Assembly (NCBI RefSeq): GCF_007997135.1
Contig: NZ_VORU01000011.1
Location: 57,101 to 121,100 of the forward strand
Direction of reading: 5' to 3'
From: Aequorivita lipolytica
Lineage (GTDB): Bacteria > Bacteroidota > Bacteroidia > Flavobacteriales > Flavobacteriaceae
DNA length: 64,000 nt
The translations under genes were made by a program, and so were the position numbers. The notes beneath the pieces were generated by a model, which was given only the letters and a program-made list of their open reading frames with translations, was not told where the DNA came from and made no database searches. The number at the start of each line of letters is the position of its first letter. Position 1 is the stretch's first letter. Below are positions 49,629-64,000 of the stretch, in pieces.

Positions 49629-52346
49629 TTGCAGACCAACAAGCATTACTTAACAATCTTCTTAACATTCCTGCTCCTTTGCAGCGCTGTTTTGCATGCA
49701 CAAGACATTCCGGCAAAGAATGAAGCCAATATTCCCAAGACTACAAAAGACGATACACTTTCAGTTAATCTGAAACCTGTTATTGATGAAATTAATGAAA
49801 AGGCGCAAGACACCGTAAAGACAGATTCTATAAAGCCCGTAAAAGAAACCTTGACAGATATAGTAGATTATTACGGCGAAGATTACGTATTGCTGAACCG
49901 AAAGGAAAACAAGGTTTACATGTATAACAAGGCCTACATTATCTACGGCGATATGCGTATTGATGCAGGTTTGATAATTCTTGACTACGACAAAAACGAA
50001 GTCTATGCCAAAGGAATAGACAGTGCCGGCGTTTACAGCCAGCGCCCAGTTTTTGTGCAGGCAAACAATAAAGTGGAACCAGATTCTATAAGGTACAATT
50101 TTGATTCAAAAAAAGCGCTCGTTTACAACAGCAGAACGGAACAAAATGGATTTAGGGTAATTGCAGATGTTACCAAGAAAGTAAACGACTCTGTGGTATA
50201 TCTGCGGAATGTAAAATTTACAACTTCAAAAAACATTGACGATCCGGAATATTATTTCTACACGCGAAAAGCCAAGTTCGTTCCCAAAAAGAAAATAGTT
50301 ACTGGTTTAACGAATATGTACATTGCAGATGTGCCCACACCCGTTGGTTTGCCCTTCGCATATTTCCCGTTGACGGAAGATCGCACTTCCGGTTTTATAA
50401 TTCCATCGTTCGGTGATAATAACAGTCGCGGTTTCTTTTTTCAGAATGGCGGATACTACTTCGCCATAAATGAGTATTTGGACTTGAGTATTTTAGGAGA
50501 TTATTATACCAATGGTAGTTATGCCTTGCGTGGAGAAACATCGTACGCGCTCCGTTATAAATTTAGGGGAAATGTGAGCGCACGTTTTGAAAAGCTAATA
50601 CGTGAAGAGCGCGGGTTTCCTAATTTTGAAGAGAGCAGTATTTACAACATAAGATGGTCGCATTCTCAGGATACCAAAAGCAGCCCCAACTCTCGTTTTT
50701 CTGCTTCGGTAAATATTGGTAGTAGTCAATATTTCACACAATCCATTAACCAGACTAACAATGCAAGCGCGCTTGTAAACACATTAAGTTCCTCTATATC
50801 GTATTCCAAAAGTTTTGAAGGCGAACCACAGGTTAACCTTGCTGTTGCGGCAACACATTCACAAAATACAAATACGAAACAGATATCTATGTCTTTGCCA
50901 AATTTGAACGCAAGTGTTTCAAGAATATATCCATTCGCTCCAAAGGACGGCACCAAAAAAGGTATCATTCAAAACATTAATTTTCAGTATGACCTTTCTG
51001 CAGAAAATAGAATCCAAACCACCGATTCGCTATTCTTTAAACCAGAAATGTTCAACAATGCGCAGATTGGGGCACAACACAACATACCTATCACCACGAA
51101 TTTCAAAATTTTGAAATATTTAAGCGCTTCAGCCGGAACAAACTATCGAGAAACCTGGGTGCTTAAAAGTACGCGACAACGCTACGATGCAAACATCAAC
51201 AATGGTTTGGGTGGAATTGTAAAAGATACGGTCGCAGGTTTTGAAAGTTATCGAACTTATAATTTTTCAACAAGTTTGGGGACCACGCTCTATGGGCTCT
51301 TTAACTTCGGAAAAGAGAAAAAGATACAAGCCATCCGCCATGTAGTGCGCCCTTCCCTTGGTTATAACATCAATCCGGCATTTGATAGGTACTACGATGA
51401 ATTTATTATACCACAAACGGCAGATGAAGCAGCGCAAGTTGTAGAATATTCGCGTTTTGAAAATACACTTTACGGTGCTCCGGGAAAAGTATATTCCAGT
51501 AATATTGGTATGTCGCTAAGCAACACTTTTGAAGCAAAGGTGCGCGATCGCGACACGATGGCCCTTGAACCAAAGAAAGTGATATTATTAAACAATTTAA
51601 ACTTTTCTACCGCTTACAATCTTGCAGGAGATTCGCTGCAATGGAGCCCGTTACAATTTACTGGAAGCATACCGATTGTTCCAAAGCTGGATTTCAACTT
51701 TAGTGGAACTTTAGACCCCTACGCGCTGAACAACAATAACAAAAAGATTGATGTTTTTAACATTGACAATGGCGGTAGTCTTTTCCGGTTAACAAATGCA
51801 AACGTAAGTATTAACTATTCCTTCTCAAGTAAAGATTTTGACGGTAGCACCCGTAAAGATTTGAATAGGATAGATAATGAAACCTTCCGAAATGGAGGGC
51901 GCCCCGATGATCTTTTTGGGGATGCAGCCGATGTTTATGATGGACAGATTTATAAAGATGATACAGAAGAGGAAGACAATGATAAAACAAATGTGGAGTG
52001 GTACAATTACAGCATTCCGTGGGATATGCGCTTTGCGTACACAATAACCTATGCCAATGGCCAGCGACAGAACGAAATTTCAAGCCAGTCCTTAATGGTG
52101 AGCACAAATATGGAATTGGCTCCGCGATGGACCGTGGGTGTTTCTTCGGGTTACGATTTTAAGAATAATGGCGTTACGCTTACGCAATTTCGTTTCCAAC
52201 GCGATTTAGAAAGTTGGCAGATGAGTTTCAATTGGACGCCCATTGGTAGTATTAATACGGCTTGGTATTTCTTTATAGGGATAAAATCTTCAGTGCTTAG
52301 TGATATTAAATACGACAAACGAAGGGAAAGCGATAAACGTTTGTAG
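49629..52346 (+). CDS. LptD-like outer-membrane LPS-assembly protein
   Basis: 905 residues if started at TTG 49629, where the following LQTNKHYLTIFLTFLLLCSAVLHAQ gives a clean signal peptide. The frame is open from TTG 49578, but that overlaps the promoter -7 box. OstA-like jelly-roll (LptD N-domain) at about 80-200 with YGDMRIDAGLIILDYDKNEVYAKG, then a long C-terminal beta-barrel (about 230-900) rich in aromatic alternations. It imports LPS into the outer leaflet. A 7-bp tandem repeat begins right after the TAG. Confidence 0.85.
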   Translation: MQTNKHYLTIFLTFLLLCSAVLHAQDIPAKNEANIPKTTKDDTLSVNLKPVIDEINEKAQDTVKTDSIKPVKETLTDIVDYYGEDYVLLNRKENKVYMYNKAYIIYGDMRIDAGLIILDYDKNEVYAKGIDSAGVYSQRPVFVQANNKVEPDSIRYNFDSKKALVYNSRTEQNGFRVIADVTKKVNDSVVYLRNVKFTTSKNIDDPEYYFYTRKAKFVPKKKIVTGLTNMYIADVPTPVGLPFAYFPLTEDRTSGFIIPSFGDNNSRGFFFQNGGYYFAINEYLDLSILGDYYTNGSYALRGETSYALRYKFRGNVSARFEKLIREERGFPNFEESSIYNIRWSHSQDTKSSPNSRFSASVNIGSSQYFTQSINQTNNASALVNTLSSSISYSKSFEGEPQVNLAVAATHSQNTNTKQISMSLPNLNASVSRIYPFAPKDGTKKGIIQNINFQYDLSAENRIQTTDSLFFKPEMFNNAQIGAQHNIPITTNFKILKYLSASAGTNYRETWVLKSTRQRYDANINNGLGGIVKDTVAGFESYRTYNFSTSLGTTLYGLFNFGKEKKIQAIRHVVRPSLGYNINPAFDRYYDEFIIPQTADEAAQVVEYSRFENTLYGAPGKVYSSNIGMSLSNTFEAKVRDRDTMALEPKKVILLNNLNFSTAYNLAGDSLQWSPLQFTGSIPIVPKLDFNFSGTLDPYALNNNNKKIDVFNIDNGGSLFRLTNANVSINYSFSSKDFDGSTRKDLNRIDNETFRNGGRPDDLFGDAADVYDGQIYKDDTEEEDNDKTNVEWYNYSIPWDMRFAYTITYANGQRQNEISSQSLMVSTNMELAPRWTVGVSSGYDFKNNGVTLTQFRFQRDLESWQMSFNWTPIGSINTAWYFFIGIKSSVLSDIKYDKRRESDKRL

Positions 52347-52414
52347 TTGATGGTTGATGGTTGATGGTTGATGGTTGATGGTTGATGGTTGATGGTTGAT
52401 GGTTGATGGTTGAT
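52347..52414. repeat. Heptanucleotide tandem repeat (TTGATGG)~9.7
   Basis: Nine full copies of TTGATGG (52347-52409) and a partial TTGAT (52410-52414), starting at the base after the LptD stop codon. No mismatches within the array. Such repeats can change length by slipped-strand mispairing. Situated between lptD and ridA. Confidence 0.95.
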
Positions 52415-63619: not shown

Positions 63620-63703
63620 GGAGAGGTGCCGGAGTGGTAACGGAGCAGATTGCTAATCTGTCGACGGGCAACCGTCGCCAGGGTTCGAATCCCTGTCTCT
63701 CCG
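63620..63703 (+). tRNA. tRNA-Ser (anticodon GCT)
   Basis: 84 nt. The acceptor stem GGAGAGG pairs with TCTCTCC (one G-T). The D arm is present, the anticodon loop TTGCTAA gives GCT (63652-63654), a long variable arm (TCGACGGGCAACCGTCGC region) marks a serine tRNA, and the T arm CAGGGTTCGAATCCCTG is intact. The CCA is not encoded. It reads AGC/AGU codons. Confidence 0.97.
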
Positions 63704-63762
63704 CATTATAGAGTTTAAAAACTCCAAAATTACAGTGAACAATGGAGTAATTTCTGTTCACG
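63704..63762 (+). other. Spacer with a 7-bp hairpin between tRNA-Ser and the tRNA-like array
   Basis: Contains GTGAACA (63735-63741) pairing with TGTTCAC (63755-63761), loop 13 nt, plus GAGTTTAAAAACTC (63709-63722). The hairpin ends exactly where the first tRNA-like unit begins. Confidence 0.55.
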
Positions 63763-64000
63763 GGGTGTAGCGTAGCCCGGTTATCGTGTCCCGATTTAGC
63801 ATCGGGAAGTTCACAGGTAACGAATCGCAAGAAGTTGAAATTACTTCAGGGTGTAGCGTAGCCCGGTTATCGCGTCCCGATTTAGCATCGGGAAGTTCAC
63901 AGGTAACGAATCGCAAGAAGTTGAAATTACTTCGGGGTGTAGCGTAGCCCGGTTATCGTGTCCCGATTTAGCATCGGGAAGTTCACAGGTAACGAATCGC
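63763..64000 (+). repeat. 86-bp tandem repeat of tRNA-Pro-like units (2.8 copies visible)
   Basis: Units start at 63763, 63849 and 63935, exactly 86 bp apart and nearly identical (one variable base in CGTGTC/CGCGTC, plus slight change at the junction). Each unit carries GGGTGTAGCG-TAGCCCGGTTATCG, the acceptor 5' strand and D arm of a tRNA-Pro, then an anticodon-like hairpin (CCCGA / TTTAGCA / TCGGG; triplet TAG). The T arm is disrupted (GGTAACGAATCGC instead of GGTTCGAATC) and there is no acceptor 3' strand. A GAAGT...ACTTC hairpin ends each unit. The third copy is cut by the window edge. Confidence 0.8.

Follow-up and report, generated by a model that had tools for sequence, protein, structure and literature searches.

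Tandem palindrome-capped tRNA-Pro stumps at a contig end in Aequorivita lipolytica, a possible product of homing-type insertion into tRNA genes

The window analyzed here, a stretch of 64,000 nucleotides from Aequorivita lipolytica, ends in an array of tandem tRNA-Pro 5′ stumps, each capped by a palindrome. We lean, by a modest degree, toward an origin of this array in the repeated insertion of a compact homing-type element that carries no open reading frame (ORF), with a working tRNA-Pro predicted just past the contig end. Similar insertion has probably taken place at other Aequorivita tRNA genes (Val, Met, Arg, Leu, Asn and Phe).

Anatomy of the array

Tandem Repeats Finder (TRF) places the array at 63763–64000 with a period of 86, 2.8 copies, 98% matches and a score of 462; the second-best tandem array in the window scores 138. 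The exact period and the near identity of the units agree with an earlier note on this DNA, and its count of three copies resolves into two complete 86-bp units and 68 of the 86 bases of a third, which is cut where contig C2 (121,100 bases) stops at window base 64000. The array had been described as beginning immediately after tRNA-Ser, which needs correction, as the tRNA-like start of unit 1 (the C of CGGGGTG) lies at 63761, 57 bases past the tRNA-Ser end at 63704. The features are the following.

63620..63704, plus strand: intact tRNA-Ser(GCT), first gene of a Ser-Pro-Arg tRNA cluster (ARAGORN; Rfam, 56.2 bits; Ser-Pro-Arg order in sister loci)
63705..63760, plus strand: native tRNA-Pro leader, still before the first stump (local score 44.5 to a sister intact tRNA-Pro leader, shuffled maximum 20.5)
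63761..63846, plus strand: unit 1, with 28 tRNA-Pro bases, palindromic arm, remnant and foreign leader (TRF; homologous to the 11 units of H23M31 locus L045)
63789..63807, plus strand: palindromic arm TCCCGATTTAGCATCGGGA of unit 1 in the anticodon-arm place (arm pattern in named loci; hairpin covariation)
63831..63847, plus strand: foreign-leader hairpin GAAGT/ACTTC between units 1 and 2 (sequence; folding)
63847..63932, plus strand: unit 2, with A for G at the second tRNA base and C for T at hairpin-core column 9 (sequence)
63875..63893, plus strand: palindromic arm of unit 2 (arm pattern in named loci)
63917..63933, plus strand: foreign-leader hairpin between units 2 and 3 (sequence)
63933..64000, plus strand: unit 3, first 68 of 86 bases, then the contig end (sequence)
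63961..63979, plus strand: palindromic arm of unit 3 (arm pattern in named loci)

Read 5′ to 3′, each unit consists of the first 28 bases of tRNA-Pro, which we take to be positions 1–26 in standard numbering and which are intact except for single bases, then a palindromic arm, what is left of the variable region, and a leader containing the GAAGT/ACTTC hairpin that had already been seen between units. The arm TCCCGATTTAGCATCGGGA occupies the anticodon-arm place in every unit. A tRNA-Pro anticodon-like hairpin had been proposed at this place; a hairpin is present and is not the tRNA-Pro arm, since CCTGC/GCAGG with anticodon TGG has given way to TCCCGAT/ATCGGGA. As had also been observed, the units lack both T arm and acceptor 3′ strand, and neither ARAGORN nor Rfam (E up to 10) calls a tRNA on the units, which leaves tRNA-Ser as the sole tRNA there; Rfam at the same threshold assigns them to no family of any kind. 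The array is, as suggested, a tRNA-derived repeat. Folding of unit 1 beats 200 of 200 shuffles (z −3.36), folding of unit 2 is weaker (z −2.05, with 9 of 200 shuffles equally good), and unit 1 together with its flanks gives z −1.83, with 7 of 200 shuffles equally good. The 86-bp unit contains no ORF and is too short for an endonuclease ORF, and no GIY-YIG gene adjoins the array before the contig end. A CRISPR array was rejected, as all 86 bp of the period are conserved and the combination of identical repeats with unique spacers is absent. Elsewhere in the window, TRF reports a 7-bp tandem repeat, GTTGATG, in 9.9 exact copies at 52346–52414.

Sister loci and a foreign leader

The same place in Aequorivita sp. 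H23M31, assigned by gene order (AI-2E transporter, THUMP-like protein), carries 11 units with few differences among them, in the order tRNA-Ser, 11 units, intact tRNA-Pro(TGG), tRNA-Arg(TCT) and two GIY-YIG ORFs. Because this sister genome is a single contig, the array is not an assembly artefact in kind, which was the doubt that the earlier note had raised about its own observation. Continuation of the units into a normal tRNA-Pro gene had likewise been named as a finding that would count against it, and the H23M31 array does end in such a gene; for this reason we regard the units as displaced stumps beside a working gene and not as free-standing odd tRNAs. Within 6 kb around the H23M31 array, six of the eight ORFs of at least 75 aa were scanned, and GIY-YIG was the only nuclease or mobility domain among them. 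A tyrosine-integrase island at a tRNA was rejected on the absence of an integrase domain from these six ORFs.

Among 28 Aequorivita genomes searched, 26 gave a match (the other two are both incomplete), and units are present in three of the 26. The third bearer, A. echinoideorum (G006; L083), has one decayed unit, and the remaining 23 genomes have a single tRNA-Pro without any unit. Comparison of leaders separates native from foreign DNA at this locus. The segment 63705–63760 scores up to 44.5 against the leaders of the 23 unit-less sisters, with shuffles reaching at most 20.5; 18 of the 23 score 34 or more and the other five 9.5 or less. The unit's own leader matches none of these 23 (9.0, against a shuffled mean of 8.9) and does match in the two remaining Aequorivita loci with units (scores of 24 and 18). 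This unit leader is common to H23M31, A. echinoideorum and Mariniflexile, while the leaders preceding the first unit differ among them. The arrangement is that of a replaced gene end, with the native leader before unit 1 in the window and the unit-type leader before the intact tRNA-Pro of H23M31. A duplicated tRNA would carry its own leader, yet the leader between units is foreign and the one in front of unit 1 is native; the sequence comparison therefore suggests that foreign leader DNA entered the tRNA-Pro gene by insertion rather than by simple duplication, the insert supplying both a new leader and a new 5′ half. The idea of an integration hot spot is borne out to the extent that foreign leader DNA lies inside the tRNA-Pro gene and several Aequorivita tRNA genes have such units. 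The further idea of a decoy or small-RNA source gained no support from this analysis and is speculative.

The missing tRNA-Pro

Both tRNA-Pro(TGG) and tRNA-Arg(TCT) are absent from the 33 intact tRNAs found in the A. lipolytica assembly by a search that scored the best 150 of 253–298 initial candidates in each genome. The array is also the only place in this assembly with the conserved first 24 bases of tRNA-Pro. Contig C43 begins with a GIY-YIG fragment and a tRNA-Arg stump, followed by a gene that is LysR-like by eye; such a gene also follows tRNA-Arg in another Aequorivita genome (G022). Since tRNA-Pro(TGG) was not found in the assembly and C43 starts in this way, the rest of the array and the intact tRNA-Pro(TGG) probably sit in the gap between C2 and C43.

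Spread of the unit and pairing of its arm

A search for two tRNA-Pro 5′ halves 55–85 bases apart matched 27 loci among named genomes, all Bacteroidota, and 4 of 397 family genomes, A. lipolytica included. Units are present in 26 of the 27 named loci, which extend to Parapedobacter, Pleomorphovibrio and a Cyclobacteriaceae MAG, and each of these 26 units leads directly into another tRNA-Pro start, which is intact at 25 loci and truncated by the contig end at L077. An arm of the form TCC[CT]G...C[AG]GGA occurs in 25 of the 27, in each case directly behind the same tRNA base; the exceptions are L062, which consists of two full tRNA-Pro genes, and L083, the decayed A. echinoideorum unit. Mariniflexile maritimum has a near-identical unit at two tRNA-Pro genes with different flanks. 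Neither the phage and plasmid collections, searched in distant mode with 63705–64000, nor a genome contig collection, searched for the exact 23-base unit core, returned a match.

The hairpin arm varies among loci yet pairs in 98.5% of cells, and changes on both sides were counted in 22 hairpin cells against 8.2 in shuffles (0 of 500 as high). Two of five covariation measures are not clearly above shuffles, namely both-sided pairs (4 against 2.6; 44 of 500) and further pair types (8 against 7.8; 342 of 500). The alignment, from which L062 and L083 were dropped, was built with a search pattern in which TCC[CT]G and C[AG]GGA are preset, so that pairing is free to vary in columns 8–10/34–36 and 16–17/23–24 only. 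Pair 8:36 is broken in 2 of 20 and pair 9:35 in 1 of 20, the latter case being unit 2 of the window.

GIY-YIG genes and broken tRNA copies at other loci

At 4 of the 27 named loci a GIY-YIG ORF lies just behind the intact tRNA-Pro and is followed by the start of another Pro stump; in L071 this second stump is complete with the TCCCG arm, and the GIY-YIG ORF has an in-frame stop as assembled. GIY-YIG matches also stand at other tRNA genes of H23M31. Downstream of its tRNA-Val lie repeats of 357 bp (4.1 copies by TRF) that hold five GIY-YIG matches together with five broken copies of tRNA-Val. In each of these copies an inverted repeat takes the place of the anticodon arm; its sequence is TCCCGAACTTGCTTCGGGA in three copies and TCCCGAAGCAAGTTCGGGA in the other two. 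Comparable GIY-YIG repeats measure 414 bp at tRNA-Met, 373 bp at Arg-TCT and 351 bp at Arg-TCG. At Asn (149 bp), Thr, another Met, His and Gln the repeats include a tRNA 3′ end and give no GIY-YIG match, and in those of Thr and His the repeated piece includes native flank. In A. lipolytica, the units at tRNA-Gly are 55 bp long and have TCCCGATAGCTATCGGGA in the D loop, and those at tRNA-Arg(CCT) are 57 bp long and have a different, imperfect repeat. A separate 31-bp tandem repeat of five copies (L138; G000 C45:69400-70300) is built on TCCCGATAGCTATCGGGA at a locus with no tRNA, and in L128 (2507–2703) a broken tRNA-Val has at its anticodon position the inverted repeat itself in tandem, eight times over with a 24-bp period.

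Are small GIY-YIG genes generally found near tRNA genes? Among the matches listed for H23M31, 9 of 15 small ones lie less than 1 kb from a tRNA, as does 1.7% of the genome, against 0 of 6 large ones, in a count that left out five RF00005 rows for partial or broken copies. Thirteen of the 15 are clustered in tandem at four tRNA genes and should therefore be counted as four independent places, not 13. The corresponding figures for the small GIY-YIG genes listed within 1 kb of a tRNA are 0 of 3 in A. lipolytica and 2 of 7 in G022. We also inspected 17 GIY-YIG loci from eight Aequorivita genomes, a sample that is not random, as some were chosen for a nearby tRNA and one (L222) overlaps a place already examined. 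Eight have broken tRNA copies by a 15-base match, and two more (L215 and L216), missed at 15 bases, are tRNA-nested by eye. The broken copies in these ten loci derive from Val, Met, Asn, Phe, Leu and Arg; an inverted repeat was recognized by eye in the broken copy of nine, the contig ending first in the tenth (L214), and an intact tRNA is present in eight. In some broken tRNAs the palindromes lie in the D and T loops and differ in sequence. The other 7 of the 17 loci show no tRNA.

Small GIY-YIG genes away from tRNAs occur among other repeats (L133, L135, L225, L226 and L229), as if nuclease and repeat traveled together. A further small GIY-YIG gene of A. lipolytica lies with a tandem repeat of ~128 bp beside the tmRNA gene (L136; G000 C44:76800-78400), the 3′ end of which resembles a tRNA end. 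Two contigs of another draft genome (G004; L214 and L215) also end just behind a tRNA-nested GIY-YIG gene, and such arrays may break assemblies.

Controls for local partial tRNA copies were in part unfavourable. ARAGORN tRNA calls with such a copy number 2 of 33 in A. lipolytica, 13 of 42 in H23M31 (two of these 42 calls being broken Val copies read as Gln) and 3 of 23 in G022, where part of the tRNA loci was covered. Control segments gave 0 of 66, 19 of 84 and 1 of 46, respectively, and strand-turned tRNAs 0, 3 and 0. The 19 control segments of H23M31 probably fall inside arrays.

Origin of the array

How could stumps accumulate beside an intact gene? Beyond the observed anatomy, foreign leader, recurrence of units and co-location with GIY-YIG genes, we infer a cycle of nuclease cutting, repair and re-insertion. 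A GIY-YIG nuclease would cut inside the intact tRNA gene, and recombination repair with a copy of the element would swap in a replacement half-gene, so that a working tRNA gene is kept and the displaced old half stays next to it as a stump. With its arm replaced, the stump would be neither a target nor a tRNA, and the intact target would be rebuilt in each round, which would make insertion and unequal recombination repeatable and lead to a tandem array. The palindrome could conceivably shield the stump from recutting or prevent a false tRNA; a blocked cut site is a guess, because palindromes are also found in D and T loops and their sequences differ.

Several observations temper this proposal. 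Because the unit carries no ORF, the window array is linked to the nuclease through shared anatomy; no GIY-YIG gene lies in the Pro units, and the only trace near the array in A. lipolytica is the fragment at the C43 edge, beside the tRNA-Arg stump. Plain duplication explains the Thr and His repeats that hold native flank, and unequal recombination alone can lengthen an array once two copies exist. The ORF-less unit, the GIY-YIG genes without tRNAs and the possibility of expansion by recombination alone keep our preference for repeated homing-type insertion a slight one.

An account without any endonuclease is that tRNA-Pro was duplicated in tandem, one of the two copies decayed, and this dead copy was then multiplied by slippage or by unequal crossing-over. 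The near identity of units within an array, both in the window and in H23M31, is what unequal exchange gives, and the native downstream flank in the Thr and His units fits as well. However, the unit's leader differs from the native leader, and a like palindromic arm recurs at the same tRNA position in unrelated genera and in several tRNA types, with compensatory changes, which makes passive decay a rather unlikely course of events, albeit the most credible of the alternatives.

A second possibility is that the tRNA parts are passengers of a REP-like palindromic repeat that a Y1 (RAYT-type) transposase carried into tRNA copies. Sites of the form TCCCGATn0-9ATCGGGA number 44 against 0 reversed in A. 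lipolytica and 26 against 0 in H23M31, of which Pro units supply 3 and 11, respectively, many others being dispersed, and Y1 transposase matches occur in four of five genomes examined. Yet the TCCCGA palindrome was near none of three Y1 genes inspected (11 Y1 matches in all), the single Y1 match of G022 is weak, G007 is without one, and the fixed position of the arm in 25 of 27 Pro loci speaks against it; we consider this origin improbable. Still less probable is a retained function of the units as RNA, in which they would act upstream of tRNA-Pro as leader, processing signal or decoy and would have been amplified for dosage. The paired hairpin with compensatory changes, the low folding energy of unit 1 and the tRNA-Pro start directly after the unit in 26 loci would suit such a role, but units are absent from 23 of 25 sister loci with an intact tRNA-Pro and, by the pattern used, from 393 of 397 family genomes, and similar stumps lie both downstream and upstream of other tRNAs.

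Extending repeated homing-type insertion to the phylum, we tentatively hypothesize, at somewhat less than even confidence, that Bacteroidota harbor tRNA-gene parasites, minute GIY-YIG elements that cut a tRNA, supply the replacement half, leave a palindrome-capped half behind and stack in tandem, the Pro array being a stripped-down, nuclease-free form. If so, essential tRNA genes would permanently house a mobile element that leaves its host unharmed because it brings along a spare half-gene, tandem arrays would be records of repeated homing, and nuclease-driven tRNA amplification, shown in phage, would extend to bacterial chromosomes. It would also be a warning that a draft genome from such bacteria may be interrupted at a tRNA gene and so lack the intact copy, as has apparently happened here.

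Comparison with known systems

Our literature search, made mostly among openly accessible articles, found no description of such arrays in Bacteroidota. Group I introns with homing nucleases occur in bacterial tRNA genes and share with the present proposal a homing nuclease and the tRNA anticodon region as target. The difference is that no intron is proposed here, and a substitute half would rebuild the tRNA instead of splicing.

REP elements and their RAYT (TnpA-REP) systems comprise short dispersed palindromes in many copies (PMC3733652), a likeness to the TCCCGA repeat; the palindrome here is, in contrast, tied to tRNA fragments and small GIY-YIG genes, with none near the three Y1 genes inspected. 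Mitochondrial mobile ORFs, such as those of Allomyces atp6 and the Glomus hybrids, illustrate that a nuclease element can bring a substitute gene end, and an endonuclease ORF with that substitute end displaces the native end (PMC3630166). Those cases involve protein genes and C-terminal ends, whereas the loci described here involve tRNA genes, either end, palindromes and tandem copies, and the 86-bp unit of the window is without an endonuclease ORF.

A close parallel is phage T6, in which the GIY-YIG nuclease SegB makes breaks in tRNA-containing DNA and drives tandem tRNA-Tyr amplification by homologous recombination (PMC13096335). Shared features include the position of a GIY-YIG gene next to tRNA genes, the tandem repetition of tRNA together with nuclease, and recombination of the tRNA 5′ region with the nuclease gene's 3′ end (PMC13096335). 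T6 differs in being a phage with working tRNAs under selection by defence systems (PMC13096335), whereas here the setting is bacterial chromosomes, the tRNA copies are broken and palindrome-capped, and the window unit has no nuclease gene. A GIY-YIG gene in or beside the amplified unit, as with SegB, is not seen at the window array up to the contig end; relatives do have one at other tRNA genes, and 4 of the 27 named loci have one behind tRNA-Pro. With the T6 precedent, a homing mechanism is plausible here (PMC13096335).
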